Source: Rhodocyclales bacterium
GTDB taxonomy: Bacteria > Pseudomonadota > Gammaproteobacteria > Burkholderiales > Rhodocyclaceae
Length of the DNA: 56,849 bases
Direction: 5' to 3'
NCBI GenBank assembly: GCA_016235165.1
Contig: JACRLX010000049.1
Coordinates: 1 to 56,849 of the forward strand
The position numbers were made by a program, and so were the translations under genes. Shown piece after piece: positions 2,807 to 23,962 of this stretch. Position 1 is the first letter of the stretch, and every line of letters begins with the position of its first letter. The notes under the pieces were generated by a model. It did no database searches, had not been told where the DNA came from, and was given only the letters and a program-made list of their open reading frames with translations.

Positions 2807-4067
2807 CCCCGTCGAGCTGGCGCGCGGCGTGCACTGGATCGGCGCCTTCGACCCGGACTTGCGCAGCTTCGACATCATCCTGCGCACCGCCAACGGCACC
2901 AGTTACAACGCCTACGCGGTGCGCGGCGATGCCGGCGTGGCGGTGATCGACACGGTCAAGGCCGGCTTCGGCGAACGCTTCTTCCGCCGCCTGGAAGCCG
3001 TCGCCGACTACGACGAGATCAGCACCGTGGTGCTGAACCACCTCGAACCCGACCATTCCGGCGCCCTGCCGGAGCTGCTGCGACGGGCACCGCGCGCGCA
3101 GCTTTACGTCTCGCACCAGGCGCGGCCGATGCTCAAGGGCCTGTTCGATCCGGAGGAGTTCGCCGGCCGCATCACCGGAGTCGGCACCGGCGACACGGTG
3201 GACCTGGGCGGGCGCACGCTCGAATTCTTCAACACGCCCTACCTGCACTGGCCGGACACGCAATGCACCTGGCTGGAGGACGAAGGCCTGCTCTTCTCGG
3301 GCGATTTCCTCGGCTGCCATTACTGCGACATGCGCCTGTTCAACGATGCGGTCGGCGACTTCCGCTTTTCCTTCGACTACTACTATGCGCACATCATGCG
3401 GCCGTTCCGCGCCCATGTGCGCAGCGCCCTGGACCTGATCGAGCCGCTGTTGCTGCGGACCATCGCCCCGGCGCACGGCCCGGTGCTGCGCGAGGACCCG
3501 CGCGACTACGTGCGCCGCTATCGCGCGTTGTCGAAGAGCGGCCTGCACCGCCACCAGGTGAAGACCCTGGCGATCTTCTACATCTCGGCCTACGGCGCCA
3601 CGCGGCGCATGGCCGAGGCCATCGCCGCCGGCGCCGAATCGGCAGCCGGCGATACCGATGCCCCCGCCGGCGGCGTGCGCGTCTCGCTCTACGACATCGA
3701 AGGCAGCGAGCCCCATCCTTTCGTCGACCTGATCGAGGAGGCCGATGCCCTGATCTTCGGCAGCCCGACCATCAACGGCGACGCCGTAAAGCCGGTGTGG
3801 GACCTGCTCGCCACGCTGACCATGGTCGACGTCAAGGGCAAGCTCGGCGCGGCCTTCGGCTCCTACGGCTGGAGCGGCGAGGCCGTGCCAATGATCGAGG
3901 ACCGCCTGCGCCGCCTCAAGCTGCGCGTGCCGGTGCAGGGCGTCAAGGCGCGCCTGGCGCCGACGCCCGAGGAATTTTCCGCCTGCCATGCACTGGGGCA
4001 CGACATCACCCTGCACCTGCTGGGCCGCGCCGAGGCGCGCGCCGTCGACATGGCGGAACTGGTTTAA
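2769..4067 (+). CDS. A-type flavodiiron protein (FprA/Fdp family)
   Basis: Flavodiiron proteins reduce O2 to water or NO to N2O at a di-iron site using FMN. The 432-residue product has the metallo-beta-lactamase-like di-iron domain with the HxExDH motif at His91, Glu93, Asp95 and His96, a second GDFLGCHYCD segment, and a C-terminal flavodoxin domain from about residue 255 (YISAYGATRRMAEAI). No rubredoxin or flavin reductase domain follows, so it is class A. The start overlaps nifO by 38 bases; an ATG at 2781 is an alternative. Lying in the nifB operon, it is probably expressed with nitrogenase, perhaps scavenging oxygen. Confidence 0.88.
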   Translation: MTTTMRATADRADPVELARGVHWIGAFDPDLRSFDIILRTANGTSYNAYAVRGDAGVAVIDTVKAGFGERFFRRLEAVADYDEISTVVLNHLEPDHSGALPELLRRAPRAQLYVSHQARPMLKGLFDPEEFAGRITGVGTGDTVDLGGRTLEFFNTPYLHWPDTQCTWLEDEGLLFSGDFLGCHYCDMRLFNDAVGDFRFSFDYYYAHIMRPFRAHVRSALDLIEPLLLRTIAPAHGPVLREDPRDYVRRYRALSKSGLHRHQVKTLAIFYISAYGATRRMAEAIAAGAESAAGDTDAPAGGVRVSLYDIEGSEPHPFVDLIEEADALIFGSPTINGDAVKPVWDLLATLTMVDVKGKLGAAFGSYGWSGEAVPMIEDRLRRLKLRVPVQGVKARLAPTPEEFSACHALGHDITLHLLGRAEARAVDMAELV

Positions 4068-4084
4068 CACTACGGAGCAATTTC

Positions 4085-4372
4085 ATGCCAAAAGCACAAG
4101 TCACATTCCAGGACATCGGCGTCACCGTCACGGTGCCGGCCGGCACCCGTTTGATCGAGGTCTCGGAAAAAGTCGGCGCCGGCATCACCTACGGCTGCCG
4201 CGAGGGCGAGTGCTGCACCTGCCTGACCAAGATCGTCTCCGGCCACGAGAACCTGGCCGCGCCTTCGGTGCTGGAGGACCAGGTGCTGAAGGACAACCTC
4301 GCGCCCCGCCACCATCGCCTTGCCTGCCAGGCGCAAATATTGGGCGGCACCATCGTCGTCAAACCCACCTGA
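4085..4372 (+). CDS. 2Fe-2S plant-type ferredoxin
   Basis: The 95-residue beta-grasp ferredoxin has cluster ligands at Cys38, Cys43, Cys46 and Cys81 (CREGECCTC, then LACQ) with the normal C-x4-C-x2-C spacing. An extra Cys44 sits inside the loop. It follows the flavodiiron gene by 17 bases, so it may be that protein's electron donor or another nif electron carrier. Its stop codon lies inside an 11-bp inverted repeat (4371-4412). Confidence 0.85.
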   Translation: MPKAQVTFQDIGVTVTVPAGTRLIEVSEKVGAGITYGCREGECCTCLTKIVSGHENLAAPSVLEDQVLKDNLAPRHHRLACQAQILGGTIVVKPT

Positions 4373-4412
4373 ATTTCATGACTCCTCGGCTGCGCCTCCG
4401 ATCATGAAATTC
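4371..4412 (+). terminator. inverted repeat over the ferredoxin stop codon
   Basis: GAATTTCATGA and TCATGAAATTC form a perfect 11-bp stem with a 20-base loop. The stem is AT-rich and no T-run follows, so it is more likely an mRNA-end or attenuation structure than a strong intrinsic terminator. Confidence 0.4.
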
Positions 4413-4552
4413 GGTGTTCGCCACATTGCCCCCCACCCCCTTCCCCCGCCCCGGGGCGGGGGTTGAAGACTGCTCGCTACGCTCGAGATCCACCCGGAAA
4501 TCCCTCGCCCCTTTTCAGGTCATTTTTCATCAATCACCCTTAGGAGCCCACC

Positions 4553-4927
4553 ATGGCCAATGTCACATTCTCCAGCCCGCTGCACAAGGACAAGACCGTC
4601 TATGCCGTTGCCGGCAGCCACAAGCAGACCATCCTCGAACTGGCCAAAGAGAACCATATCACGATCGACTTTTCCTGCGGCGACGGCGAGTGCGGCACCT
4701 GCCTGGTCAAGGTCAGCAGCATCGACAAGTCCAGCCACAACAAATACGGCCACATGGGCGGCCCGCTCAATGCGCGCGAGGTCACGGTGCTCAAGGAAAT
4801 GGGCAAGATCAAGCAGGCGCAGATCGAGCAGATGTACGTTGACGACCTGCCGCCCACGGAATGGCGCCTGGCCTGCCAGTACATCGTGCGCGACGAGGAC
4901 ATCCTGGTCGAATACCCCAGCAAGTAA
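4553..4927 (+). CDS. Shethna FeSII-like 2Fe-2S ferredoxin (nitrogenase protection)
   Basis: The 124-residue product starts MANVTFSSPL and has ligands Cys42, Cys47, Cys50 and Cys108. The unusually long insert between the third and fourth Cys, the DLPP segment and the C-terminal DEDILVEY are all features of Azotobacter FeSII (Shethna protein II). FeSII forms an oxygen-stable complex with nitrogenase and shields it during oxygen stress. The function here is inferred from similarity and nif context. A good ribosome binding site (AGGAG) precedes the ATG. The upstream gap of 180 bases holds repeats, so expression may be partly independent of nifB. Confidence 0.82.
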   Translation: MANVTFSSPLHKDKTVYAVAGSHKQTILELAKENHITIDFSCGDGECGTCLVKVSSIDKSSHNKYGHMGGPLNAREVTVLKEMGKIKQAQIEQMYVDDLPPTEWRLACQYIVRDEDILVEYPSK

Positions 4928-4946
4928 GGTTCATGAACCTTACTTG
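4921..4946 (+). repeat. 26-bp perfect palindrome over the FeSII stop codon
   Basis: The 26 bases equal their own reverse complement (core GGTTCATGAACC). The TAA of the FeSII-like gene (4925-4927) lies inside. It could be a protein-binding site or an mRNA 3' structure; no T-run follows. Confidence 0.7.
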
Positions 4947-4980
4947 CATTCGATCACCCACCCCCCTTCCCGCCATGCGG

Positions 4981-5090
4981 CCCACGGCTGGCTTTGCACA
5001 GCCAGCCGGCTGCGGCGGCGCGACGCATGCGTCGCGAATTCCCGCCTCGCCCCCTCAAGGGGGGGTCCTGATCGGCTCGCTGCGCTCGAA
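4981..5090. repeat. dispersed GC-rich repeat, copy 1
   Basis: This intergenic segment holds a palindromic core (GGCTGGCTTTGCACAGCCAGCC, shown broken as GGCTGGCTTTGCA / CAGCCAGCC) at about 4986-5007 and the 17-mer GGCTCGCTGCGCTCGAA at 5074-5090. Both recur at 23904-23962, where the core is inverted. A variant of the 17-mer, CTCGCTACGCTCGA, occurs near 4473. It fits a REP-like intergenic repeat family. Confidence 0.6.
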
Positions 5091-5123
5091 GCCACGAAGC
5101 GCTGATCCTGTTCCTCGTTAGCA

Positions 5124-6014
5124 ATGGAGTGCGCGTCCGAGGACGTCCTGGCGCGCGCGGAGGCGGCCTGCCTCGGACTGGCGTTGGGCGATGCGCTCGG
5201 CGCCACGGTCGAGTTCATGACGCCGCGCGAGATCGCACATACCCACGGCGTGCACCGCGAACTGGTCGGCGGCGGCTGGCTGCGCCTGCAACCGGGGCAG
5301 GTCACCGACGACACCGGCATGGCGCTGGCGCTGGGCGAGGCCATCCTCGCCCGCCGCGGCGAGATCACGCGCCTGACCTGCGCGCGTGCCTTCGACGCCT
5401 GGATGCGCAGCAAGCCGGTGGACATCGGCAACACGGTGCGGCGCAACCTGCTGCTGTTCCGCCGTACCGGCTATCCCACCGCACCGGCGTCCGAGCACGA
5501 CGCCGGCAACGGCGCGGCGATGCGCGTCCTGCCGGTGGCGCTGGCCACGCTGGGATGGCCCGAATACGAAGTGCGCGAGGCCTGTCGCATCCAGGCCCAT
5601 GTCACGCACAACAATCCGGTATCCGATGCCGCCTGCGAGTTCATCGCCCTTGCGGTGCAGGACTTCGTCCGCGGCGCCTCGCTGCGCGAGGTGTATCGCG
5701 GACGCATCCGGCCCCTGGTCGAGACGCAGCCGGCGTTTGCCTTTCGCGGCAAGCTGCGGCGCGAGAACCCCAGCGGCTGGATCGTCGAAACCCTGCAAGC
5801 GGTGCTGCAGGGCCTCGTTGATGTCGGCGGTTTCGAGAACTGCCTGGTCGACGTCGTCAATCGCGGCGGCGATGCCGACACCACCGGCGCCATCGCCGGC
5901 ATGCTGGCCGGTGCGCTCTACGGTCGGGACGCCATCCCGGCGCGGTGGATCAAGGCGCTCGACCCGGAAGTGCGCGAGCGCTGCGTCGCACAAGCCAGCG
6001 CGTTGCTGACCTGA
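5124..6014 (+). CDS. draG: ADP-ribosyl-dinitrogenase reductase glycohydrolase DraG
   Basis: DraG removes ADP-ribose from the NifH arginine and so restores nitrogenase activity. The 296-residue product has the ADP-ribosylglycohydrolase metal motifs TDDTGM at 61-66 and GGDADTTG at 248-255, and matches DraG in length. The partner draT is 12 kb away, next to nifH. A degenerate copy of its last third lies at 15190-15430. No sigma-54 promoter is visible in the 196 bases upstream, which are filled by repeats. Confidence 0.92.
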   Translation: MECASEDVLARAEAACLGLALGDALGATVEFMTPREIAHTHGVHRELVGGGWLRLQPGQVTDDTGMALALGEAILARRGEITRLTCARAFDAWMRSKPVDIGNTVRRNLLLFRRTGYPTAPASEHDAGNGAAMRVLPVALATLGWPEYEVREACRIQAHVTHNNPVSDAACEFIALAVQDFVRGASLREVYRGRIRPLVETQPAFAFRGKLRRENPSGWIVETLQAVLQGLVDVGGFENCLVDVVNRGGDADTTGAIAGMLAGALYGRDAIPARWIKALDPEVRERCVAQASALLT

Positions 6015-6200
6015 TCGCTTCCAGCACAGGCGCAGCCCCGCGGCACATCCCCGTAAATTTCGCGTCAGCCGCGCCCGGAACCCGAGCGCTACGTAAGCCT
6101 CGGTGCTTGCGGTGGGCACGCAGTAGGCTGAAGTCCGGATTCACCGATTCTGCGAGGCGTGTCCCGCATCGAGGGCTGCGCCAGGCATCGGAATTTGGCC

Positions 6201-6509
6201 CTAACCGTCTGCGAATCTGCGCCGCAGCTTTCCAATCACGGAAAGCACAATGGCGCTGACGGGCTTGACCCGGCATGCCAGAACCACGCCGTCGCGCTCT
6301 TCATCCTCGCTGACGTGAGCTCGGCTCATTACCTGCGAGGTGTATTCACCCTGCACTACCTGCACTTTGCAAACTCCGCACCCGCCGCTTCTGCATCCGC
6401 AGGGAATTCCCTTCTTGCCGAGCGCCAACATGCCTTCGAGCAATGACTTGGCATCGGCACAGGTGTACCGCTCGTTGGTCTCCTGGATCGTGATTCGATA
6501 TTTGGCCAA
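6201..6509 (-). CDS. XylT-like 2Fe-2S ferredoxin
   Basis: The 102-residue plant-type ferredoxin has ligands Cys39, Cys44, Cys47 and Cys79 (CRSGGCGVC, then VLACR). XylT-type ferredoxins reactivate catechol 2,3-dioxygenase by re-reducing its oxidised iron. The catechol 2,3-dioxygenase gene is 1.3 kb away, which supports this role, although the ferredoxin here is on the opposite strand, 109 bases downstream of the LysR gene. The only start in frame is TTG at 6509, so the N-terminus is less certain. Confidence 0.75.
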   Translation of the reverse strand: MAKYRITIQETNERYTCADAKSLLEGMLALGKKGIPCGCRSGGCGVCKVQVVQGEYTSQVMSRAHVSEDEERDGVVLACRVKPVSAIVLSVIGKLRRRFADG

Positions 6510-6618
6510 ATCCGGCTTCCCCGAGGTGGGTTTGTCGAAGTTCGACGGACATGTTTACTTGGGGTGCGTGCTGCGTCCAATACCTTCTGGATTGTCCGGG
6601 GATACCCGACGGGTAGGG

Positions 6619-7560
6619 TCAGTCCGGAGCTTGGTTCATCCTGTTCAATTCGGTGAAATCCGGACTCTTTGCCACGGTGCGCATGGAGGTCAGCAGCGCC
6701 TGGAGGATCGGAGAATCATCGTCGGCGCGGTAGATGCAGCACAAGTCAACACGCGACTGTGGCAAGTGATGCAAGGGCTTGTAGATGAGACCCGGCAAGG
6801 CCAATACAGTGGCGGAACGGGGCACCAATGTCGCGCTGAATCCTGTCGCCACCAGGGCCAGGGCGTGCACTACGTCGCCAACTTCCTGCGCGACCAGCGG
6901 TGTGAAACTGCTGGCCCGGCACATATCGCGAACCTGGTCGATGAAACTGGGGCGTGCGCCGGAAGGATACAGGACCAGCGGCACGTCCTTGAGCTCACTC
7001 ATGGTCACCACGGAGTGTTGGGCCAGGTGGCTATTGGATGGTACGGCCACGTACAAGGCCTCGGTCAGCAGGGGTTCGCTGATCAAGCCTTCTATAGGTC
7101 GCATCAGGCGATTGAAGGCAAGCGTAATGCGACGTTGGCGCAAGGCATCGATTTGCTCCTCCTTGATCATGTTGTGCAGGAACACGCTGACTTCCGGGTA
7201 CGACTCCCTAAACGCCCGCATCAAGCGAGGAATCGCCCAGAATATCCCGGAACCGAAAATCGCGACGTCAACCCGTCCCAACAGGCCTTGGGCGGCTTTG
7301 CTGCTTCGTTCGATTGCGCGTTCAGTCATGCCGAGAATGTCACAGGCATCGTTGTACAGCACCTTCCCCGCATCAGTAAGTTCAACCCCGCGATTCGTTC
7401 GACGCAACAACTGAACGCCCAACTGATCTTCCATCTGTTGGATTTGCCGCGTCAACGGAGGCTGCGAGATATGCAATCGCAGCGCGGCGCGACCGATGTT
7501 CCTTTCTTCGGCCACGCAGACGAAATACCGAAGATGACGAAGTTCGAGGTTGATTCTCAT
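6619..7560 (-). CDS. LysR-family transcriptional regulator
   Basis: The 313-residue product has an N-terminal winged helix-turn-helix (MRINLELRHLRYFVCVAEE through a PPLTRQIQQMED recognition helix), and an inducer-binding domain from about residue 90. The N-terminus resembles the CatR/BenM group of aromatic-catabolism regulators. I chose the ATG at 7560 because the family starts with MxLRHLRYF; a start at 7611 would add 17 residues. Divergent orientation from the catechol 2,3-dioxygenase gene suggests it controls the meta-cleavage block. GC content appears lower than in the nif genes. Confidence 0.88.
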   Translation of the reverse strand: MRINLELRHLRYFVCVAEERNIGRAALRLHISQPPLTRQIQQMEDQLGVQLLRRTNRGVELTDAGKVLYNDACDILGMTERAIERSSKAAQGLLGRVDVAIFGSGIFWAIPRLMRAFRESYPEVSVFLHNMIKEEQIDALRQRRITLAFNRLMRPIEGLISEPLLTEALYVAVPSNSHLAQHSVVTMSELKDVPLVLYPSGARPSFIDQVRDMCRASSFTPLVAQEVGDVVHALALVATGFSATLVPRSATVLALPGLIYKPLHHLPQSRVDLCCIYRADDDSPILQALLTSMRTVAKSPDFTELNRMNQAPD

Positions 7561-7787
7561 GGCGATGAGATTGTCACGATGGGCAGATTGCGTCGAAACA
7601 CGGTCAAACATACCAGAGAACCATGTTTGGTTGCCGTTGCTATACGCACGAGGTATTACAGCCAGAGTTCGATGGTATTGGACGAGCCAAGCTTCCCCCT
7701 TCTAAAGTGGGGGTACTTACAACGAGCGAGTGCAAATTCGTCAGAGGCACTGAAAGCTCACTTCGAGTGACGAGAGGAGAAATTGAA

Positions 7788-8723
7788 ATGGCAGTCAATG
7801 GCGTCGTGCGTCCGGGACATATCCAAATTCGTGTGATGAACCTGGAAGAGGGGGTTCACCACTATCGCGATGTGCTGGGCATGGAGGAAACGGGCCGTGA
7901 CGCATCCGGTCGCGTGTACCTGCGCGGCTGGGACGAGCGCGATCACCACAGCCTCATCCTGCGCGAGGCGGATCGGGCCGGAATGGACTTTTTCGGCTTC
8001 AAGGTAGATAACGAAGCCACCCTGAACAAGCTGGAAAAGGACCTGCAGGCATGGGGCGCCAAGACCGAGCGCATTCCCGCCGGCGACCTGTTGGAAACAG
8101 GGGAGCGCGTACGCTTCGAGATTCCCAGTGGCCACGTGATCGAGCTGTTCGCCAAGAAGACCTTCAGCGGCTGCGACCGGGGTGAAAAGGATCCTGCGCA
8201 CTATTCGCCTAAGATGGACAGAGGCATTGCTCCGATGCGCTTCGACCACGCCCTGCTCTACGGTCCCAATGTTGACAAGGTGCTCGACTTGTTCACCAAC
8301 GTGCTGGGCTTCCACCTGGCGGAGTATGTCACGCTGCCCGATTGCGACGTCAAGGGCGCGCTGTGGCTCTGCTGTTCGAACAAGGCGCATGACATCGCCT
8401 TCGTCGTTCACCCGGAGCCGGCGAAACTGCACCATGTGTCGTTCTACATGGAATCCGTGGAGCGCGTTTTCCGCGCCGCCGACATCATGGCCGCCAACGA
8501 CGTGAAGGTGGATATCGGCCCGACCCGCCATGGCATTACCCGTGGCGGCACCATATATGCATGGGATCCGTCCGGGAACCGTTTCGAAACCTACTCCGGC
8601 GGAAACATCACCTACCCCGACCAACCGCCGATCGCCTGGACCTGGGAAGGCCTGGGCGAAGGCGGCGGACTCGATGTGGCCCACCGGAAGCTGCACGATA
8701 CCTTCCTGACCGTGGTGACCTGA
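7788..8723 (+). CDS. xylE: catechol 2,3-dioxygenase
   Basis: This enzyme opens the catechol ring beside the hydroxyls to give 2-hydroxymuconic semialdehyde. The 311-residue extradiol dioxygenase has two vicinal-oxygen-chelate domains, and the Fe(II) ligands are in place: His154 (FDHALLYG), His216 (LHHVSF) and Glu267 (NRFETYSGG). Length and motifs match XylE/DmpB. The ATG at 7788 follows a GAGAGGAG ribosome binding site; an upstream in-frame ATG at 7623 has none. The hairpin at 8744-8765 separates it from the rest of the pathway. Confidence 0.93.
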   Translation: MAVNGVVRPGHIQIRVMNLEEGVHHYRDVLGMEETGRDASGRVYLRGWDERDHHSLILREADRAGMDFFGFKVDNEATLNKLEKDLQAWGAKTERIPAGDLLETGERVRFEIPSGHVIELFAKKTFSGCDRGEKDPAHYSPKMDRGIAPMRFDHALLYGPNVDKVLDLFTNVLGFHLAEYVTLPDCDVKGALWLCCSNKAHDIAFVVHPEPAKLHHVSFYMESVERVFRAADIMAANDVKVDIGPTRHGITRGGTIYAWDPSGNRFETYSGGNITYPDQPPIAWTWEGLGEGGGLDVAHRKLHDTFLTVVT

Positions 8724-8743
8724 TCATCCGATGCCGAACTTAC

Positions 8744-8770
8744 CCCGCAGCGCCCAGGCTGCGGGACTTT
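8744..8770 (+). terminator. intrinsic terminator after catechol 2,3-dioxygenase
   Basis: CCCGCAGC and GCTGCGGG form a perfect 8-bp stem with a six-base loop, followed by ACTTTTC. It would end or attenuate transcription between the dioxygenase and the downstream pathway genes. Confidence 0.65.
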
Positions 8771-8807
8771 TCAGTCTTGGTAGCAATCCCCATCGAGTGA
8801 ACAACAA

Positions 8808-9254
8808 GTGCCCGTTGCCAATATCCATGTCCTCGCCGGACACCCCAGGTCGGTACTGAAGCAGTTGCTCCGGGAGTTTTCAGCCGTCTTTGCCAGAGAA
8901 ATCAACGCGCCCGCAGACCGTCTTCAAGTCTGGATCACCGAAGTGGATCCGGAGCTGTGCGTGATTGCCGGCGAGCCGGCCGACGAAGTCTTGAAGCGTC
9001 AGGGCCGCGCGGATACGGAAGTACCATTTATTCGAATGGCGCTGATGGAAGGGCGTTCGGTGGAAACGCTACACAAGCTCATGCATGCGCTCAGCGACGT
9101 CACTGCCCGTCATCTCGGTGGAGACCCCAAGCGCGTACGGGTGCAAATTGACCATGTCCATCCGGATCGCTGGTCCATCGGCGGTGTCGCCGCAAGCATC
9201 ATCCGTGCTGACGAGCTCGCAAATCGCGCCGCCTCTCCGGCACACGCGGCCTGA
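8808..9254 (+). CDS. 4-oxalocrotonate tautomerase family protein, two-domain form
   Basis: The pathway needs a tautomerase for 2-hydroxymuconate, normally a peptide of about 62 residues with catalytic Pro1. This 148-residue product starts MPVANIHVLAGHP from a GTG, giving Pro1 after methionine removal, and its second half (from about residue 72, VPFIRMALMEGRS) looks like another tautomerase unit whose proline is internal. It is therefore probably a tandem fusion in which only the first unit has a free N-terminal proline. The GTG start is set by Pro1; the ribosome binding site is weak. Position between dioxygenase and dehydrogenase supports a meta-pathway role. Confidence 0.72.
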   Translation: MPVANIHVLAGHPRSVLKQLLREFSAVFAREINAPADRLQVWITEVDPELCVIAGEPADEVLKRQGRADTEVPFIRMALMEGRSVETLHKLMHALSDVTARHLGGDPKRVRVQIDHVHPDRWSIGGVAASIIRADELANRAASPAHAA

Positions 9255-9288
9255 CTGGCGCTTCCGAATTCCGGAGAGGAGCTTCACT

Positions 9289-10749
9289 ATGCAGACCTTC
9301 AATCATTTCATCGACGGCCGATTCCAACCGGCAAGCAACGGAAGGACCTTCGAGAAGCGTTCGCCCACGGACAATCAATTGATGGGCCAAGTGGCCGAGG
9401 GAACGCAGGCCGACATTGACGCGGCGGTTGGCGCAGCACGCGAGGCGCTGCATGGCGATTGGGGTCGCATAGCCGTTGATAGGCGCATAGCCATGATGCA
9501 CGCGGTGGCCGACGGCATCACCAGACGCTTTGACGATTTCGTCGCGGCCGAGGAGGCTGATACTGGGCAACCGCATCATGTCATTGCGCACGCGTTTGTT
9601 CCCCGTGGCGCAGCCAATTTCAAGATCTTTGCCGACATTGTCAAGAACGTCCCTGCCGAGTCCTTTGTCATGGACACCCCGGATGGTGCCGGCGCCTTGA
9701 ACTATGCCCTACGCAAACCCAAGGGCGTGATCGCGGTCATCAGCCCGTGGAATGCGCCGCTGCTGCTGATGACGTGGAAGGTCGGTCCGGCCCTCGCTTG
9801 CGGCAACACCGTCGTAGTCAAGCCTTCCGAAGAAACCCCTGCCACCGCAACGCTGTTGGGTGAGGTAATGAACGAAGTCGGTGTGCCCAAGGGCGTGTAC
9901 AACGTCGTGCATGGCTTTGGCCCCGACGCCGCGGGTGAATTCCTTACCCGTCACGAAGACGTGGACGCCATAACGTTTACGGGCGAAACCGCTACCGGCA
10001 CGGCGATCATGAAGGCTGCTGCCGACGGCATTCGGGATGTCAGCTTCGAACTGGGAGGCAAGAACGCCGGAATCGTGTTCGCCGACTGCGATTTTGACGC
10101 CACCGTTGAAGGCATTTTTCGCTCGGCCTTCATGAACACCGGGCAGGTTTGCCTGGGTACCGAGCGGGTGTACGTCGAACGCGCCATTTTTGATCGTTTC
10201 GTGGCCGCGTTGAAGGCGCGCTGCGAGGGCGTCACTTACGGTCGGCCGAGTGACCTTGGCGTCAATTTCGGCCCGTTGATCAGCCAGGTGCACAGGCGCA
10301 AGGTTCTGTCCTATTACGGAAAGGCGATGGCCGAAGGCGCCACGCTTATCACGGGCGGTGGCGTACCCGACATGCCCGCAGAGCTGGCCGGTGGCTCCTG
10401 GATACAACCCACGATCTGGACAGGCCTGCCGGAAACCGCATCGGTAGTGCGCGAAGAGATCTTTGGTCCTTGCTGCCATGTCCGCGCGTTTGACGGCGAA
10501 GAAGAAGTGGTGCGCCTGGCCAACGCCAACCGCTATGGATTGTCCACCACGATCTGGACCGAAAACCTCAAGCGAGCGCACCGCATGGCCGCCGCCATCG
10601 ACGCAGGCATTGCCTGGGTCAATAGCTGGTTCCTGCGCGACCTGCGCACCCCGTTTGGTGGCAGCAAGCAAAGTGGTATAGGCCGCGAAGGCGGTGTGCA
10701 CTCTCTGGAGTTCTACACCGAGATGCGCAACGTTTGCATCAAGCTCTGA
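9289..10749 (+). CDS. xylG: 2-hydroxymuconic semialdehyde dehydrogenase
   Basis: This is an NAD-dependent aldehyde dehydrogenase of 486 residues that oxidises the ring-cleavage product to 2-hydroxymuconate. Visible motifs are PWNAPLLL, the Glu motif FELGGKNAG and the catalytic Cys in NTGQVCLGTERV. Sequence and context match XylG/DmpC. The ATG at 9289 follows GGAGAGGAG; the longer frame from 9085 overlaps the tautomerase and is not used. Confidence 0.9.
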   Translation: MQTFNHFIDGRFQPASNGRTFEKRSPTDNQLMGQVAEGTQADIDAAVGAAREALHGDWGRIAVDRRIAMMHAVADGITRRFDDFVAAEEADTGQPHHVIAHAFVPRGAANFKIFADIVKNVPAESFVMDTPDGAGALNYALRKPKGVIAVISPWNAPLLLMTWKVGPALACGNTVVVKPSEETPATATLLGEVMNEVGVPKGVYNVVHGFGPDAAGEFLTRHEDVDAITFTGETATGTAIMKAAADGIRDVSFELGGKNAGIVFADCDFDATVEGIFRSAFMNTGQVCLGTERVYVERAIFDRFVAALKARCEGVTYGRPSDLGVNFGPLISQVHRRKVLSYYGKAMAEGATLITGGGVPDMPAELAGGSWIQPTIWTGLPETASVVREEIFGPCCHVRAFDGEEEVVRLANANRYGLSTTIWTENLKRAHRMAAAIDAGIAWVNSWFLRDLRTPFGGSKQSGIGREGGVHSLEFYTEMRNVCIKL

Positions 10750-10761
10750 CTGGATGCCGGA

Positions 10762-11559
10762 ATGGACATGAAAACCATCACTCAGTGCGGTGACGAATTA
10801 TACGACGCCTGGCGCGAACGCAGAGTCATCGGCCCCTTGCGCGAGCGCTTCCCCGCCATCAGGATCGAAGACGCCTACGCCATTCAGTTGCGCATGGTCG
10901 AGCGCAGAGTGAAGGCGGGCGAAACCATCGTCGGCAAAAAGATCGGCGTTACCAGCAAGCCGGTACAGGACATGCTGGGCGTCTACGAGCCGGACTTCGG
11001 ACAACTCACTTCTGGCATGGTTTGCCACGAGGCCGACGGCGTCGACCTGAACGGCCTGATTCAGCCCAAGGCCGAAGCCGAGCTGGCATTCGTGCTGGAG
11101 CGAGATCTGATCGGGCCGGGTATCACGGCAACCGATGTCATTCGTGCCACGGCCTATGTGACGCCATGCTTCGAGATCGTCGACTCGCGCATTCTGGACT
11201 GGAACATCAAGATCCAGGACACGGTGGCAGACAATGCGTCGTGCGGAGTGTTTGTGCTGGGCGCGGCCAGGGGCAACCCGCGCAAACTTGATCTGCAGCT
11301 TGCGGGCATGAGCCTGCAGCGCAATGACGAGTTGCATTCGACCAGCGTGGGGGCGGCCGTACAGGGCTCTCCGGTGAATGCCGTGGTCTGGCTGGCCAAC
11401 ACCCTGGGCCGCCTGGGCTTGCCGTTTCGCGCTGGCGAAGTGATTCTGTCCGGTTCGCAATCACCCCTGATCGCCGTCGGCGATGGAGACGACCTTGTGT
11501 GCCGCATCTCCGGTCTCGGCGGATGCCGGGCCCGCTTTCACGGGAGTCCTGCGAAATGA
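10762..11559 (+). CDS. xylJ: 2-oxopent-4-enoate (2-hydroxypentadienoate) hydratase
   Basis: The 265-residue product belongs to the fumarylacetoacetase-related hydratase/decarboxylase family, with conserved IVGKKIGVTS, the acidic metal segment PKAEAELAFVLERDL and the EIVDSRILDW motif. In the pathway it hydrates 2-oxopent-4-enoate to 4-hydroxy-2-oxovalerate. Its sister gene downstream is the decarboxylase, and the two enzymes form a complex in known meta pathways. An ATG at 10768 is an equally plausible start. The stop overlaps the next start. Confidence 0.85.
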   Translation: MDMKTITQCGDELYDAWRERRVIGPLRERFPAIRIEDAYAIQLRMVERRVKAGETIVGKKIGVTSKPVQDMLGVYEPDFGQLTSGMVCHEADGVDLNGLIQPKAEAELAFVLERDLIGPGITATDVIRATAYVTPCFEIVDSRILDWNIKIQDTVADNASCGVFVLGAARGNPRKLDLQLAGMSLQRNDELHSTSVGAAVQGSPVNAVVWLANTLGRLGLPFRAGEVILSGSQSPLIAVGDGDDLVCRISGLGGCRARFHGSPAK

Positions 11560-12371
11560 CGACCGCTGCCTTGCGCATGCAGCGCCAGCTCGCTGATGCC
11601 GATATCTCCAGCTTGTGTGACCGGGTGTTCGTCGCGCAACGCGACGCCACCGCGATCCCCAAGCTCACAGATGACTATCCGCAAATGACCCTGGCCGATG
11701 GCTATGCGGTGCAGTTCGAACTGTTGCGCCGTCACATGGCCGCAGGACAGCGGCAAATCGGCTGGAAGGCCGGTTTGACATCCAAGGCAAAGATGGACCA
11801 GATGGGTGTCCGTGTGCCGACCGTCGGATTTCTGCTGGCGGATATGTTTCGGCCCGAAACGTCGACGATCCGCACAGATGACCTGGTTCACCCCCGTGTC
11901 GAATGCGAGATGGCGTTTGTCACCAAGACGCGGCTTTCCGGCGCCAATTGCTCGCGCGAAGAGGTGCTGGCGGCAACCGACTTCATTGTGCCGGCCGTCG
12001 AGATCATTGACTCGCGCTTTTCAGGCTTCAAGTTCGATCTGCCCAGCGTCGTGGCCGACAATAGTTCCTCCGCCCGTTACGTTACGGGCGGGCGGGCTCG
12101 GCTGCCGATGGATGTCGATATGTCCACACTGGGCGTGGTCATGGAAAGAAATGGCGAACCCGTGGCCATGGGGTCATCAGCGGCCGTCGCCGGACATCCT
12201 GCCGATGCGGTAGCGCTGGTAGTCAAGGTACTGGATTCGTTGGGCGAAGAACTGCCGGCCGGCAGCTTCGTCATGAGCGGTGGCATCACCGAAGCCATCG
12301 CGGTTTCGCCCGGAGATCACATAGGCGTACGCTTCCAGGAACTGGGCAGCGTCGCGATGCGGTTTTCCTGA
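11556..12371 (+). CDS. xylI: 4-oxalocrotonate decarboxylase
   Basis: The 271-residue paralogue of the preceding hydratase has QIGWKAGLTSKAK, PRVECEMAFV and EIIDSRFSGFKF. It decarboxylates 4-oxalocrotonate to 2-oxopent-4-enoate. Assignment of which paralogue is hydratase and which is decarboxylase rests on the motif flavour (IGWKAGLTS versus IGKKIGVTS) and gene order, so it is strong but not absolute. It overlaps the hydratase stop by four bases (ATGA). Confidence 0.83.
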   Translation: MTTAALRMQRQLADADISSLCDRVFVAQRDATAIPKLTDDYPQMTLADGYAVQFELLRRHMAAGQRQIGWKAGLTSKAKMDQMGVRVPTVGFLLADMFRPETSTIRTDDLVHPRVECEMAFVTKTRLSGANCSREEVLAATDFIVPAVEIIDSRFSGFKFDLPSVVADNSSSARYVTGGRARLPMDVDMSTLGVVMERNGEPVAMGSSAAVAGHPADAVALVVKVLDSLGEELPAGSFVMSGGITEAIAVSPGDHIGVRFQELGSVAMRFS

Positions 12372-12386
12372 ATTGGGATACATTTC

Positions 12387-13316
12387 ATGAAAAAGATCAA
12401 ATGCGCCTTGATCGGCTCGGGCAACATCGGTACCGACCTGATCTACAAGATACTGCGCAGCCCCGTGTTGGAGCCGGTATGGATGGTTGGCATAGACCCT
12501 GAGTCCGAAGGCCTCAAGCGTGCCAGCAGCATGGGCCTCAAAGTCACCGCCGAAGGCGTTGACGGCCTGTTGCCTCATGTCAGGAGCGACGGCATCCGGA
12601 TTGCCTTCGATGCGACCAGTGCCTACGTTCATGCCGAGAACAGCCGCAAACTCAACGAACTCGGCGTAATGATGATTGACCTGACGCCGGCGGCCATCGG
12701 GCCTTTGTGCGTTCCGCCAGTGAACTTGCGGGAGCATGCCGAACGCCAGGAAATGAACGTCAATATGATCTCCTGTGCGGGGCAGGCGACGATTCCCATT
12801 GTCCATGCGGTCAGCCGCATTCAGTCGGTGGCCTATGCGGAAATCGTCGCCAGCCTGGCCTCCAAGTCCGTCGGCCCCGGCACTCGGGCGAACCTTGACG
12901 AGTTCACCTATACAACCTCCGACGCGCTTGAAAAAATCGGGGGCGCACGCAAGGGCAAAGCCCTCGCGGTGATCAATCCCGCCGAGCCACCGCTGATCAT
13001 GCGCAATACGATTCAATGTTTGTGCGATGACGAGCCCGATCGGGTGCGCATTACCGAATCGATATTTTCGATGATCGCTGAAGTGCAGAAGTACGTGCCT
13101 GGTTACAAACTGGTCAACGGCCCATTGTTTGACGGCAAGCGAGTTGCGGTATTCATGCAGGTCGCCGGTTTGGGCGACTATCTCCCAACTTATGCCGGCA
13201 ACCTGGACATCATGACCGCCGCAGCGTGCCGCACCGCCGAAATGTTTGCCCAGGAGATTCTCGATGGCACGATCACATTGACTCCCGCCATGCCTGCCGC
13301 CCTTGAGGAGTTCTGA
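12387..13316 (+). CDS. dmpF: acetaldehyde dehydrogenase (acylating)
   Basis: The 309-residue enzyme converts acetaldehyde and CoA to acetyl-CoA. It shows the N-terminal nucleotide-binding motif GSGNIGTDL (10-18) and the catalytic Cys130 in [10 protein letters not shown]. It works as a channelling complex with the aldolase encoded three bases downstream. Length and motifs match DmpF/XylQ/BphJ. Confidence 0.93.
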
Positions 13317-13318
13317 CC

Positions 13319-14359
13319 ATGACAAACGAACACAAGGGCCGCAGGGTCACTTTGCACGACATGTGTTTGCGTGATGGCATGCACGCAAAGCGCGAGCAGA
13401 TCCCCCTGGAAAAGATGGTCGAGATAGCCGGCGCCCTGGATGAGGCGGGGATGCCGATGATGCAGGTCACGCATGGGGCTGGCGTAGGTGGCAACTCGCT
13501 GCAACACGGATTCGCTTTGGCCAGCAATGAGGAGTACCTCAGCGCCGTATGTGCGAAGGTGAAGCGGGCCACCGTGTCGGTCTTGCTGATCCCGGGCCTG
13601 GGGACCGTGAAGGAACTTCACAGTGCCTACGATTGCGGGGCGCGCAGCGTGCATGTGGCCACGCATTGCACGGAGGCGGACACCTCGCCCCAGCACATTG
13701 CCTACGCACGCAAGCTGGGCATGGATACCACGGGATTCCTGATGATGGCCCACCTCAATGACCCGGACGGGATTGCGCAGCAGGGCAAGAAGATGGAAAG
13801 CTATGGAGCGCAAACCATTTACATCACCGACTCGGCGGGCTACATGTTGCCGGACGACGTGAGGGCCCGTGTCCATGCGCTCAGGGACGTGCTCAATCCG
13901 GAAACGCAAATCGGCTTCCACGGTCATCACAACATAGCGATGGGGGTGGCCAATAGCATCGCCGCGATTGAAGCAGGTGCCGAACGCATCGATGCGGCGG
14001 CGGCCGGTTTGGGTGCGGGGGCAGGCAACACACCCATGGAAGTCCTGGTAGCGGTGTGTCGGCGCCTTGGAATCGAAACCGGCGTTGATGTCTGGAAGAT
14101 TCAGGATATCGCCGAAGACCTGGTAGTTCCGATGATGGACTTCCCGATCCGCGTTGATCGCGATGCGCTAACGCTGGGCTACGCCGGTGTGTATGGCAGC
14201 TTCCTGCTTTGGGCCAAACGGGCCGGCGAAAAGTATGGCGTCCCTGCTCGCGACATACTGGTTGAACTGGGGCGAAGAAAGATGATCGGCGGCCAGGAGG
14301 ACATGATAGAAGACACCGCCTTGACGCTGGCCAGGGAACGTGGGCTTCTGGCGGCCTGA
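13319..14359 (+). CDS. dmpG: 4-hydroxy-2-oxovalerate aldolase
   Basis: The 346-residue class II aldolase splits 4-hydroxy-2-oxovalerate to pyruvate and acetaldehyde. It has the DxxLRDGMHA segment near the N-terminus (RD metal/catalytic pair) and the [11 protein letters not shown] metal-ligand histidines near residue 200. The partner dehydrogenase is directly upstream, as in known pathways. Confidence 0.93.
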
Positions 14360-14373
14360 CGCCGGTGTCGGTC

Positions 14374-15129
14374 ATGTCTGCAACCAGGGAAATCGCCATT
14401 GTCGTGGGGGCGACCGGAGCCATGGGCCGGGTCATCACTCGGCGCCTGAGCGATGCCGGCCTTCAGGTGGTGGCGGTCGCGCGTAGCGCGAGTGCCCTGC
14501 TGGATCTGGCACACCGGATCCCCGGTATTCGCACTTGCGAAGCCGATATCGCTGACGATGCCTCGCAGGACGCCATTCGTGCTCACCTGGATGCTCCGGT
14601 GCGAATGGTGGTTCTAGGAGCCGGGGTGGCGACCGCCGGCGGCGTACTGGATGCGCCCGTGGCGGCGGTGGTCGATGCGGTCAATATCAAGGTCGGCGGC
14701 ATGCTGCGGCTGGTACGGGCCGTCGATTCCCGATTGATCCGCGGCTCCCGCCTGGTGGCCATTGGAGGCCATTACGGCTTTGAACCCAGCGCCTACGCGG
14801 CGACAGCTGGCGTGGCGAACGCCGCGTTGGCCAACCTCATCAAGCAGATGTCCTGGGGCTACGGCGAACGGGGTATCACCGCACACCTGATTGCGCCCGG
14901 CCCGGCAGATACGGAGCGATTGCATCGCGTGGCCACGGCAAGGGCTGCGCAGTGCAGATCGACGGCGGGGGACGTGCTGGAGCAAATGCGCGGCGAATCC
15001 GCCATTGGCGTATTTACAACCGTCGAACAAATCGCTTGGGCTGTTGCGATGTTGCTTGCATCCGAAGCCGACGCTCTTGCGGGCAGCACCTTGTTCATGG
15101 ATGCGGGGCGGCGCAAATCGCTGCCATGA
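14374..15129 (+). CDS. SDR-family oxidoreductase lacking the usual catalytic lysine
   Basis: The 251-residue Rossmann protein has the nucleotide motif GATGAMG near its start and an SDR-like C-terminal half. At the expected YxxxK site it reads YAATA, so the Lys is replaced by Ala, while a Tyr is kept. The natural substrate is unknown; it may act on a pathway intermediate or be non-catalytic. It is the last gene of the meta-cleavage block. The start is ATG at 14374; a GTG at 14365 would add three residues. Confidence 0.75.
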   Translation: MSATREIAIVVGATGAMGRVITRRLSDAGLQVVAVARSASALLDLAHRIPGIRTCEADIADDASQDAIRAHLDAPVRMVVLGAGVATAGGVLDAPVAAVVDAVNIKVGGMLRLVRAVDSRLIRGSRLVAIGGHYGFEPSAYAATAGVANAALANLIKQMSWGYGERGITAHLIAPGPADTERLHRVATARAAQCRSTAGDVLEQMRGESAIGVFTTVEQIAWAVAMLLASEADALAGSTLFMDAGRRKSLP

Positions 15130-15189
15130 AACAAGGCATGGCTTGCCTGAGGTTCGTCTGCACGGCTAAAGTGCCAGACGGGATGCCGC

Positions 15190-15430
15190 CAGTGCCGCGC
15201 AGCGAGAACCCCGGCGGTTGGATCGTCGAAACTCTGCGGGCGGTACTGTAGGGGCTGGTCGATGTCGGCGGCTTCGAGAATTGCCTGGCCGACGTGATCA
15301 ATCGCGCCAGCCACGCCGACACCATGGGTGCCATCGCCGGCATGGGGCCGGCGCGCTGACGGTAGGCGCTCGACCCGGAAGTGCGCGAGCGCTGCGTCAT
15401 GCAAGCACGGGCACTGCTGACCAGACCGCC
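15190..15430 (+). pseudogene. decayed duplicate of the draG 3' end
   Basis: Translation gives SENPGGWIVETLRAVL, stop (TAG at 15249), GLVDVGGFENCLADVINRA, then after a frameshifting deletion ALDPEVRERCVMQARALLT. This matches roughly the last 100 residues of the intact DraG encoded at 5124-6014, with a nonsense change, loss of the metal-site GGDADTTG (now ASHADTMG), a deletion of about 30 bases and loss of the stop. Similarity continues for some 60 bases beyond the end of each copy. Confidence 0.85.
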
Positions 15431-15519
15431 CCGGCGCAGGCATCCACCCGGCGTCGCACCCCATTAAAATTCACATCTCATCCACGCCCGGATCGCGGGC
15501 AACACCGAAACCAACCGCC

Positions 15520-15930
15520 ATGAGCCAGTATCGCCTTGCCTTTCCCGAGGTCGCCATCGACTTCATGAACCACGACCATCACGAGTTCGCCGCGCTGCGC
15601 GAGAAGCTGCTCACCCTGATCACCACAGACAGCACCGCCGCCAGTATCGAGCCCCTGCTCGACGAATTGCACAGGCACACGGTGCGCCACTTCGCCGACG
15701 AGGAAAAGCTGATGCAGGAAACCGGCTTCCCGGTCTATCCGGTGCATAAGGACGAGCATGACAACGTGCTCGCCGACATGGCCGCGCGCATCGCCCGGTG
15801 GCGGCAGACCGGCGACCATGGCGCGCTGCACGCCTGGCTGGAGCATGCCGTCGGCGATTGGCTGGTGGCCCACATCGCCGGCATGGACACCGTCACCGCG
15901 CGCTTTGCGGCGGGCAAGCAGGGGCGCTGA
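15520..15930 (+). CDS. bacteriohemerythrin
   Basis: The 136-residue four-helix protein carries the hemerythrin di-iron ligand pattern: a His in the NHDHHEF segment, HTVRHFADEE, HKDEH and the C-terminal HIAGMD. Single-domain bacteriohemerythrins bind O2 and are proposed to deliver or buffer it. The gene follows the draG remnant, so before insertion of the catabolic block it may have lain next to draG; a role in oxygen handling during nitrogen fixation is inference. Confidence 0.88.
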   Translation: MSQYRLAFPEVAIDFMNHDHHEFAALREKLLTLITTDSTAASIEPLLDELHRHTVRHFADEEKLMQETGFPVYPVHKDEHDNVLADMAARIARWRQTGDHGALHAWLEHAVGDWLVAHIAGMDTVTARFAAGKQGR

Positions 15931-16125
15931 AAGCGCGACATCGCCGCGGTGCCAGCGCCGACTTTTGTCGGGTTGGGTGAGTTGGTGGTTGTGTCTCATG
16001 GTTCTGAACGAGGTCGCCCAGGCAAGGCCTGTCGCCGCCACCCGCGCATTACACCTGCTACCCTATTCCTTCCCTGCGGTAAGCCTCATCCGCCCGCCGC
16101 GACGTGAAGCAAAGGAGCAAGTGCG

Positions 16126-17031
16126 ATGAAAACAGCGGTTCTCGGCGCCGGCGCGGTCGGCTGCTACTACGGCGGCATGCTGGCGCGAGCCGGGCGCGAG
16201 GTGGTGCTGGTCGGGCGCCCCGCGCACGTCGCGGCGATCGGGCGCGACGGCCTCTACATGGACACCCTGAACTTCAAGGAGCATGTGAAAGTCGGCGCCA
16301 GCACCGCGGCGGCGGCGATCGCCGGCGCGCGCCTGGTGCTGTGCTGCGTGAAATCGAACGACAGCCCGCAGGCCGCCGCCGAAATGGCACCCCACCTGGC
16401 GCCTGATGCCATCGTGCTGAGCTTGCAAAACGGCTACGACAATGCCGTGCGACTTGCCGCGGCACTGGGCCGGCCGGTGCATCCGGCGGTGGTGTATGTC
16501 GCCACCGAGATGGCCGGCCCCGGCCACCTGCGCCACCATGGCCGCGGCGAACTGGTGATCGGCCCCTTCGCCGAAAGCGCCGAGGTGGTGGCCGAGTTCG
16601 CCCTGGCCGGCGTGCCGGTGCAGGTCTCGGACGACGTCGCCGGGCAGCTGTGGGCCAAGCTGATCATCAACTGCGCCTACAACGGCCTGTCGGCGATCAC
16701 ACAACTGCCTTACGGCCGCATCGCGCCGGGCGAGGGCATCGCCGGCGTGATGGAAGACATCGTCGCCGAATGCCTGGCGGTGGCGACAGCCGACGGGGTC
16801 GCGGTGCCGGGCGACATTCGCGCTGCCGTGGCCGGCATTGCGCGCTCGATGGCAACGCAGAAATCCTCGACCGCGCACGACGTGGCACGTGGCCGCAAGA
16901 GCGAGATCGACCACATCAACGGCTACGTGCTGCGCCGTGCCGCGGCGCACGGCATCGCCGCGCCGGTGAATCGCACCGTGCATGCGCTGGTCAATCTGCT
17001 CGAAAACCGCCAGATCCACGGCGGACGCTGA
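16126..17031 (+). CDS. ketopantoate reductase family protein (ApbA/PanE)
   Basis: The 301-residue NADPH-dependent reductase has the N-terminal GAGAVGCYYGG dinucleotide motif and the KLIINCAYNGLSAIT segment with the catalytic-type Lys and Asn. Family members reduce 2-dehydropantoate in pantothenate synthesis, but many relatives have other substrates, so panE is not assigned. A good ribosome binding site (AAAGGAG) precedes the ATG. Its neighbours are nif-related, yet no direct link is apparent. Confidence 0.8.
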   Translation: MKTAVLGAGAVGCYYGGMLARAGREVVLVGRPAHVAAIGRDGLYMDTLNFKEHVKVGASTAAAAIAGARLVLCCVKSNDSPQAAAEMAPHLAPDAIVLSLQNGYDNAVRLAAALGRPVHPAVVYVATEMAGPGHLRHHGRGELVIGPFAESAEVVAEFALAGVPVQVSDDVAGQLWAKLIINCAYNGLSAITQLPYGRIAPGEGIAGVMEDIVAECLAVATADGVAVPGDIRAAVAGIARSMATQKSSTAHDVARGRKSEIDHINGYVLRRAAAHGIAAPVNRTVHALVNLLENRQIHGGR

Positions 17032-17043
17032 GCCGCGCCGGCG

Positions 17044-17910
17044 TCAGGCGACGGCCGCGCTCCACTCGCGCAGCAGGTCGGCCGCCGCCGCCTCGATCAG
17101 CTCCAACCCGAGGCGCTTGCAGTAGCGCCGCTCCTTGTCAGTCGGCTGCTCGATCAGCGCCCAGCCCGCCGGTTCCGTCGCCGCGCCATGGATCAGGTCG
17201 GAGAGCACCATGCGCTCGGAATCGCGGTCGAGGCGCATGCCCAGCAGCAGATAGCGCTTGCCGCGCCGGCGCTGCTTGACAAAGGCGGGAACGGCGAAAC
17301 CGCCCATCAGCTCGGTGATGTAATCGACATAGTCGGCGTCCGAGGCGATGTAGCTCGATTGTGGCAGCGGCGAGCCCATGGGCTTGAACAGCACCGGCAA
17401 CGCGGGGTCGGCGCGTTCGGCGTCAATCTCGGTATAGCTGTCGCCATCGTGGGCGTAGAGCTTGTAGCGATAGTCGGTGCCGCTGCGGTTGCCAACTATG
17501 CGGGCGCAGCCGAGCACCAGCAGGTGCGGCAGGTGGGCGTAGCTGTCCTGCAGTTGCGTGTCGCGGTTGATGTCGATCACATAGGGCGGGGCGAGCTCGG
17601 CCAGCCAGTCGTGCAGCGCGGCACGCGTCCATTGCCGCGAGGCGTAGGTGGCATCGAGGAAGCGCGTGACGGCGCTGCGGCCGCGCTTGAGCTCGACGTT
17701 CATCGCCGCGCGCGGGAATTCGTACATCAGCTTGGGCGCCATCGGCTGGCCGTTGTTCATGGCCAGGATCAGTTGCTCGCCGGTCGCCGGCATCGGCCTG
17801 CCGTCGGCGGTGGAACGTACGTCGGCGAGGACGTCGGGGCCGAGGTAGGGAACGATGCTGCCGTCGGTGAGTCCGGCCTGCCACTGGTCGAGAAGTTCGC
17901 TGGGTATCAT
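17044..17910 (-). CDS. SIR2-like domain protein of the draT locus
   Basis: The 288-residue product contains a SIR2-type segment IVPYLGPDVLADV near the N-terminus. Similar proteins are often found next to draT in diazotrophs; their role is not established, though NAD use would suit a neighbour of an NAD-dependent ADP-ribosyltransferase. The start at 17910 follows GGAG at good spacing; a longer frame from 18096 would read through the REP repeat and is rejected. It lies downstream of draT, separated by that repeat. Confidence 0.7.
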   Translation of the reverse strand: MIPSELLDQWQAGLTDGSIVPYLGPDVLADVRSTADGRPMPATGEQLILAMNNGQPMAPKLMYEFPRAAMNVELKRGRSAVTRFLDATYASRQWTRAALHDWLAELAPPYVIDINRDTQLQDSYAHLPHLLVLGCARIVGNRSGTDYRYKLYAHDGDSYTEIDAERADPALPVLFKPMGSPLPQSSYIASDADYVDYITELMGGFAVPAFVKQRRRGKRYLLLGMRLDRDSERMVLSDLIHGAATEPAGWALIEQPTDKERRYCKRLGLELIEAAAADLLREWSAAVA

Positions 17911-18024
17911 TTTGGGTGCTCCGAAGGGGATGCCTTCCTTCGTGCAAGAACCACACCTGCCTGCAAAGCCTTGTGCGGCAAGGCCCCACCACCGGATTGT
18001 CGGATTCGCTACAAGGCCGGCGCC

Positions 18025-18093
18025 GTCATTCCGGCGAACGCCGGAATCCAGGCCTGTCGCTGCACTGGACCCCGGCGTCCGCCGGGGTGACGG
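18025..18093. repeat. REP-type palindromic pair between draT and the SIR2-like gene
   Basis: Two perfect inverted repeats, ATTCCGGCGAACGCCGGAAT (18028-18047) and ACCCCGGCGTCCGCCGGGGT (18069-18088), are separated by about 20 bases. This is a common proteobacterial extragenic palindrome. A sister copy sits between nifD and nifK. Confidence 0.8.
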
Positions 18094-18097
18094 CAAT

Positions 18098-23811: not shown

Positions 23812-23903
23812 ACACGATGCAATTGAATACCCGCCCCCTCCCAGCCTCCATCTCGCGGGGGGCGAAGGTGGGGTTTCGCGGAGCACTGCTCCGCGCCACC
23901 GAA

Positions 23904-23962
23904 GCCGGCTGGCTGTGCAAAGCCAGCCGTGGACGGTGACTATCTGGCTCGCTGCGCTCGAA
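23904..23962. repeat. dispersed GC-rich repeat, copy 2
   Basis: It contains GCCGGCTGGCTGTGCAAAGC (followed by CAGCCGTGG), the inverted counterpart of the copy near 4981-5010, and GGCTCGCTGCGCTCGAA at 23946-23962 in the same orientation as at 5074. It fills the gap before the NafY/NifY gene and ends four bases before that gene's ribosome binding site. Confidence 0.6.

Follow-up and report, generated by a model that had tools for sequence, protein, structure and literature searches.

How does an operon for catechol degradation come to lie within a nif cluster, between an intact draG gene and the decayed remnant of a second draG 3' end? The question is raised by positions 6,015 to 15,430 of a Rhodocyclales contig (JACRLX010000049.1, assembly GCA_016235165.1); the window, which is the whole stretch of DNA that was analysed, covers 56,849 nt and represents contig C44 of a draft genome of 4.47 Mb in 57 contigs. 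We consider it likely that a foreign dmp/xyl-type operon was added here by a transposon-free insertion that left a flanking duplication of ca. 0.33 kb. The succession of left flank, repeat, cargo, repeat, and right flank has the anatomy of such an additive insertion, and is composed of the following elements:

5124-6014, plus strand: draG, intact, 296 amino acids, dinitrogenase reductase activating glycohydrolase (TIGR02662 at 367.5 bits, cut-off 337; PF03747)
5753-6088, plus strand: left repeat copy, with the 3' third of draG, its stop, and then ca. 75 bp that resemble the region upstream of a hemerythrin gene (alignment, continuation test)
6089-15193, without strand: predicted inserted segment of ca. 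9.1 kb, bounded by the repeat copies; GC content at third codon positions (GC3) 0.66-0.78 in its ten genes
15194-15501, plus strand: right repeat copy, with the draG 3' remnant (15194-15425) and the hemerythrin upstream region (alignment, codon positions, continuation test)

A direct repeat of the target sequence is present at both ends of the insert. Without gaps, 5753-5903 and 15194-15344 are 83% identical over 151 nt, and 5937-6018 and 15348-15429 are 80% identical over 82 nt; the gapped alignment of 5753-6088 with 15194-15501 reaches a local score of 248 against a maximum of 32 in 300 mononucleotide shuffles, which places the resemblance between the draG end and the remnant far above chance. 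When 5753-6088 was scored against 186 windows along the contig, the two that overlap the remnant obtained 136 and 124, and no other exceeded 36; a query of the genome with its own draG DNA recovered both repeat places and one extra 35-base match (E 5e-4). All lesions that the original prediction had ascribed to the second copy are present in the alignments: a nonsense change (CAG to TAG at 15249), a deletion of ca. 30 nt (28 plus two single bases in one alignment, a single run of 30 in another), and the loss of the stop, with AGA in the remnant where draG has TGA. One TGA and two TAG were counted in the remnant. By its draG, the nearest named records to this genome are Rhodocyclales, Sulfuritalea, and betaproteobacterial metagenome assemblies.

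The similarity between the two copies extends past the draG stop for ca. 75 bp, and not only for the ca. 60 bases first noticed. In a free local search this tail is hardly above chance (27, with 26 for the runner-up among 1202 windows); scored as an extension of the draG match it is real, with a score of 48 against a maximum of 28 in 300 dinucleotide shuffles, and the post-draG sequences of 12 relatives reach 6-23 by the same continuation scoring (the highest of four offsets in each case). On the right, the tail consists of the upstream region of the hemerythrin gene, and aligns with the hemerythrin upstream region of genome G018 at a score of 94 and with 67 of 90 sites identical; the left-hand tail scores 34 against the same G018 region (maximum 31 in 300 shuffles), a narrow margin obtained with an anchor picked from the alignment. 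Three-way identities over the 90 sites (left-right 56, left-G018 54, right-G018 67) do not resolve the order. The draG end was duplicated as proposed, yet not by itself, as the hemerythrin upstream region is included. The duplicated unit, as read from these alignments, spans a draG|hemerythrin junction, and the two genes are not direct neighbors in the relatives examined. Since the repeat crosses this junction, the junction would predate the block, and the extra copy would be derived from the DNA of its own lineage or of a very near relative; we infer that the junction-spanning unit is the strongest evidence for an origin of the extra copy within this lineage, as opposed to its import with distant foreign DNA.

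An earlier extension of the right copy back to nifB was considered and left unused. A 17-bp exact match links 15184-15200 to nifB (1388-1404), without extension on either side; its score of 34 compares with a 95th percentile of 31 and a maximum of 39 in 300 shuffles (the shuffled piece measured 64 nt and the real one 71). With no more than two mismatches, the 17-bp pattern occurs twice more in the window besides its own place, where 0.11 matches are expected, and none of 100 shuffles reaches three; the match may be either chance or signal. The same 17 bp occur in the loci of many relatives, ca. 1.5-4.3 kb before draG and within what is taken as nifB, and thus provide no independent support.

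The fate of the two copies can be followed through their substitutions, which were polarised by the majority among eight relative rows (seven genomes; one short row is a second contig of genome G021). Among 232 aligned draG sites, 43 differ; the remnant accounts for 24 changes (8/7/9 at codon positions 1, 2, and 3), draG for 16 (3/1/12), and three are ambiguous. With sites treated as independent, the codon-position contrast between remnant and draG is significant (Fisher p 0.027), the draG changes being uneven (p 0.0016) and those of the remnant even (p 0.88); the other gap placement yields 37 differing sites (remnant 8/6/7, draG 2/1/11, two ambiguous) and p 0.015. As the changes in the right copy are spread evenly over codon positions and those in draG fall at third positions, the right copy is best read as a putative dead duplicate beside a constrained gene. 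Third positions differ between draG and remnant at 22 of 78 sites, or 19 of 78 with the other gap placement, which is similar to the third-position differences between genomes G000 and G018 in the hemerythrin gene (0.22) and in apbA (0.24); this similarity suggests that the insertion may be about as old as the split of these two genomes. The decay pattern is biological, which argues against an assembly chimera; such an artifact might be suspected in a draft genome of 57 contigs, and yet it would require two false joins, and in our judgement copies that are only ca. 81% alike should not mislead an assembler, so that this explanation has the smallest probability of all those weighed here.

The relatives searched show a single draG end. 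Each of the eight other draG-bearing genomes of the genus has one draG 3' place, and no second draG C-terminal stretch was detected in 80 named loci (tblastn E < 0.1, at least 15 amino acids), at least six of which extend less than 750 bp downstream; an intact second draG-like gene is not the shared arrangement of this group. A second draG fragment in G021 (contig C305) was rejected as another case of duplication, as two contigs of identical sequence merely overlap there. Together with the repeat and the deviating GC3 of the block, the single draG end in eight relatives bears out the original prediction of an insertion with a duplicated draG end, where the remnant marks the right junction. Its other suggestion, recombination between two draG copies, is unlikely, as the required tandem pair is seen in none of the 80 named loci. 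A related scenario starts from a tandem duplication of draG and its downstream region, followed by a block that lands between the copies and removes the front of the second; it would lead to the same final anatomy, and the two copies are possible sisters in the tree. This course of events is unlikely: at least two events would be required, the block occupies precisely the interval that separates the copies, and a second draG end is found in none of the 80 named loci and none of the eight other draG-bearing genomes of the genus.

For an additive insertion, the following steps can be envisaged. The draG gene would have abutted the hemerythrin gene before the block arrived, and the foreign operon (6089-15193) would have been added at this junction, leaving a direct duplication of ca. 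0.33 kb. It could have entered through a single crossover by a molecule in which the operon was linked to a junction copy; alternatively, a repair or replication process could have departed from the chromosome at 6088, continued on the operon as template, and returned farther upstream, at 5753. Thereafter the left copy would have stayed a working draG, and the redundant right copy would have decayed. Such events resemble homology-facilitated illegitimate recombination and additive transformation, where DNA is added and not exchanged (PMC3240628, PMC3784515). As described in these papers, one-sided illegitimate integration is known in competent species and occurs at low frequency in E. coli (PMC3240628), and strain R3022, a transformant, had gained a cassette inside a 3.3-kb duplication without flanking repeats, by a mechanism that its authors call unclear (PMC3784515). 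These events were observed in the laboratory (PMC3240628, PMC3784515), whereas the present case is an old scar read from sequence.

Several observations weigh against an additive insertion with a dead duplicate. With the three nearest relatives alone as reference, the codon-position contrast weakens to p 0.097. The likeness of draG to the remnant over the shared stretch (0.81) is slightly lower than its likeness to the draG genes of several relatives (0.83 for loci L034 and L115, 0.82 for L116), and a 36-row tree joins draG and remnant with weak support (82/34). No microhomology, and no pattern of long homology at one junction with little or none at the other as in homology-facilitated illegitimate recombination, is readable at the breakpoints, which are blurred because the copies have diverged so far; the crossover and template-switch routes both fit the anatomy and are not distinguishable. 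Finally, no block-free genome with draG directly against the hemerythrin gene was found; the expectation that the two genes would adjoin each other where the block is absent holds roughly, and in G005 alone, where another open frame on the opposite strand lies between them, and fails in G006, G013, and G030. The likeness values, including 0.80 between the remnant and L034, show that the copies differ as species do, as would be the case if draG and block of a related strain had entered by recombination and the remnant were the tail of the original draG; we regard this as improbable, since the best tree still joins both copies, if weakly, and since the left draG precedes a piece of hemerythrin upstream region, so that the donor would need the same junction. 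Additive insertion into the draG|hemerythrin junction remains the preferred explanation, and its cargo consists of ten open frames:

6201-6509, minus strand: 2Fe-2S ferredoxin, xylT/dmpQ-like by position (PF00111; 50% amino acid identity to the ferredoxin of a second meta cluster)
6619-7611, minus strand: LysR-type regulator (PF00126, PF03466)
7788-8723, plus strand: catechol 2,3-dioxygenase, C23O (TIGR03211 at 392 bits, cut-off 320; PDB 3hpv, 1mpy)
8808-9254, plus strand: tautomerase family protein of 148 amino acids, with a C-terminal half like 4-oxalocrotonate tautomerase (PF01361; TIGR00013 at 61.4, cut-off 56.9)
9289-10749, plus strand: 2-hydroxymuconic semialdehyde dehydrogenase, HMSD (TIGR03216 at 861.7, cut-off 693)
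10762-11559, plus strand: 2-oxopent-4-enoate hydratase, dmpE-like (TIGR03220 at 406.3, just below the cut-off of 408.8)
11559-12371, plus strand: 2-oxo-3-hexenedioate decarboxylase, dmpH-like (TIGR03218 at 384.7, cut-off 350.6)
12387-13316, plus strand: acetaldehyde dehydrogenase (acetylating), dmpF-like (TIGR03215 at 459, cut-off 282)
13319-14359, plus strand: 4-hydroxy-2-oxovalerate aldolase, dmpG-like (TIGR03217 at 538.8, cut-off 286)
14365-15129, plus strand: SDR-family oxidoreductase (PF13561, PF00106; an SDR occupies the same place in a Sphaerotilus plasmid)

Family matches for all ten agree with the original assignment of catechol degradation genes. The block is a predicted dmp/xyl-type catechol meta-cleavage operon that comprises the oxalocrotonate branch and the lower meta pathway, together with the ferredoxin and the LysR regulator; judging from these families, its function is presumably the ordinary ring cleavage of catechol, controlled by the LysR regulator that it encodes. 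The extradiol motif lies at residue 246 of C23O. The tautomerase scores above the subfamily model TIGR00013 and below the three equivalog models listed; its 148 amino acids are about twice the usual length of a 4-oxalocrotonate tautomerase, with the recognised domain in the second half. Neither a NifA site (TGT-N10-ACA) nor a -24/-12 motif was found upstream of the C23O gene, so that this search lends no support to co-regulation of the block with nif, which was dropped as a candidate. One TGT-N10-ACA pattern lies inside the block, at 12113.

The composition of the block, which the original prediction had proposed to compare, sets it apart: GC3 ranges from 0.658 to 0.776 in its ten genes and from 0.838 to 0.911 in nine flanking genes, a range that leaves out the nifB row and a frame called fdx that is without a Pfam match. 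Since its GC3 is below that of the flanking genes, the block is, by composition, evidently foreign. Its aldolase is found (E up to 1e-60) in eight of 81 genomes searched and in two of 31 genomes of the genus, namely this genome and G007, where the homolog has 66% amino acid identity and belongs to a differently ordered cluster; the block aldolase is without a near relative in the 31 genus genomes, many of which are 70-90% complete. A second, different catechol meta-cleavage cluster of this genome, on contig C8 at ca. 98-106 kb (L130), has another gene order and an aldolase with 70% amino acid identity. When 399 genomes of the order were searched at the DNA level, with two candidate places scored in most of them, 25 including this one contained matches to the block, and no single match other than itself covers the block; in G435, which has the best series of pieces, these extend over ca. 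3322-8272 of the 9105 block bases at 71-75%. Of 72,556 plasmid records, 325 yielded matches; a single one, the best match, covers at least 80% of the query 7700-15130: pSna507_unt10 of Sphaerotilus sulfidivorans (NZ_CP035710), with 73.8% identity over 94% of this query. The plasmid carries C23O, HMSD, hydratase, decarboxylase, acetaldehyde dehydrogenase, aldolase, and SDR in the same order; in contrast, its tautomerase follows the SDR and not C23O, and the block of the present genome sits in a nif cluster. In the seven genes compared with this plasmid, third positions differ most, as in C23O (0.16, 0.09, and 0.38 at codon positions 1, 2, and 3) and least clearly in the SDR (0.33, 0.21, 0.54); the substitution pattern appears to be that expected of working genes.

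The duplicated gene 3' end at both borders of this block could also recall site-specific integration of a mobile element with the draG 3' end as attachment site. The evidence makes this very improbable: Pfam and NCBIfam naming reveals no integrase or transposase among the ten block genes, the repeat of ca. 0.33 kb reaches into the upstream region of the next gene, and no second draG end is seen in relatives whose draG gap contains other cargo. Transposon target duplications are far shorter than this repeat.

Cargo at this position is not in itself exceptional. The gene order in many relatives is nifB, followed at some distance by draG, a gap, a SIR2-like gene, draT, and nifH; draG and the SIR2-like gene occur in one stretch in 40 of the 80 named loci and in two further loci, and in the other 40 named loci the stretch ends too soon or lacks a SIR2-like match. 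Measured between match ends, the gap from draG to the SIR2-like gene is 15-9205 bp in relatives, exceeds 1 kb in 19 of 42 loci, and amounts to 11,030 bp here. The gap contents of seven relatives, read from chosen open frames, are diverse: acyl-CoA synthetase-like, DsbA-like, and binding-protein genes in L035 (G013); a dienelactone hydrolase-like gene and a PIN gene in L036 (G006); an AbiGi-like gene in L037 (G015); a cation efflux gene, apbA, and a papain-like gene in L044 (G016); a hemerythrin gene in L116 (G005); and frames without Pfam match in L034 (G030) and L117 (G035). In Dechloromonas aromatica RCB, the cargo between draG and draT consists of genes for urea, urease, and cyanate (PMC2907700, Table 4); here too, nifB through draG and draT-nifHDK are parted by genes unrelated to nitrogenase, with cargo of another kind, and the passages of PMC2907700 concerned with this region do not mention a duplicated draG end. 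Because relatives and D. aromatica carry other cargo there, the draG-draT gap is permissive and cargo in it is common, contrary to the initial impression that a catabolic pathway amid nif genes is unusual; a meta-cleavage operon in a nif cluster does not appear in those titles and abstract openings that were listed from open-access literature. One might go further and see in the gap between draG and the SIR2-like gene and draT a preferred landing place for cargo in Rhodocyclales and allied nif clusters, favored since an insertion there disrupts neither arm of the nif regulon, and entered repeatedly by duplicative, transposon-free insertion, with the sole legible scar in this window and the hemerythrin-apbA pair as an earlier round; this generalization is doubtful. 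A dispersed repeat of ca. 120 bp lies just before draG (4957-5090) and recurs in the other orientation at 23844-23932; it is also found at two places of contig C61 of G013. The right side of the locus is formed by three genes:

15520-15930, plus strand: hemerythrin-domain gene (TIGR02481)
16126-17031, plus strand: apbA/panE-like 2-dehydropantoate 2-reductase gene, paired with the hemerythrin gene (TIGR00745)
17044-18096, minus strand: SIR2_2-like gene next to draT, the right neighbor of the draG gap in relatives (PF13289 at 28.1 bits, cut-off 24.5)

The SIR2_2-like gene is a frequent neighbor of draT in these bacteria. The hemerythrin-apbA pair (15433-17034 in the window) corresponds to loci L179-L182 of G018, G013, G006, and G030. 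In G006, G013, and G030 the pair lies outside nif, on contigs other than the draG-SIR2 stretch; a conserved stretch, U, lies before it, and the genes after it are those seen in this window from ca. 48 kb. In the present genome, U is located on contig C13 and runs into nifV, cysE, and NifW- and NifM-matching frames at the contig end; the NifW frame and the cut-off NifM frame score below curated cut-offs. The start of the window is probably the continuation of the left nif arm on C13 (L204, 1-3812); with C13 and C44 adjacent, the order would be U, left nif arm, block, remnant, hemerythrin-apbA, right nif arm, and downstream chromosome. Hemerythrin-apbA is a chromosomal pair and not nif DNA, and the nif cluster appears to be split around it. 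Since apbA in G016 and a hemerythrin gene in G005 occupy the same gap, the association of nif with this pair may be older than the block. The pair is also present in G018, where the best draG-like matches reach only 27-34%. G018 could pass at first sight for an unoccupied site, a reading that was dropped: its apbA has modCBA as neighbor (contig C97, L179), a gene set that borders nif in the window and in G013, and other genes precede the hemerythrin gene, so that G018 may have lost nif DNA from this place.

The locus exemplifies an event of a familiar kind, with genes that are likewise known, and leaves the known biochemistry of catechol and nif systems unchanged; its chief value lies in a legible scar and in a nif cluster split around chromosomal genes. 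The scars of transposon-free operon joining are, in our judgement, seldom legible; here the target appears to have been duplicated, with one copy kept under selection and the other left to drift. Nif genes that surround an ordinary piece of chromosome, the hemerythrin-apbA pair, may help to trace the movements of nif clusters and their acquisition of cargo.

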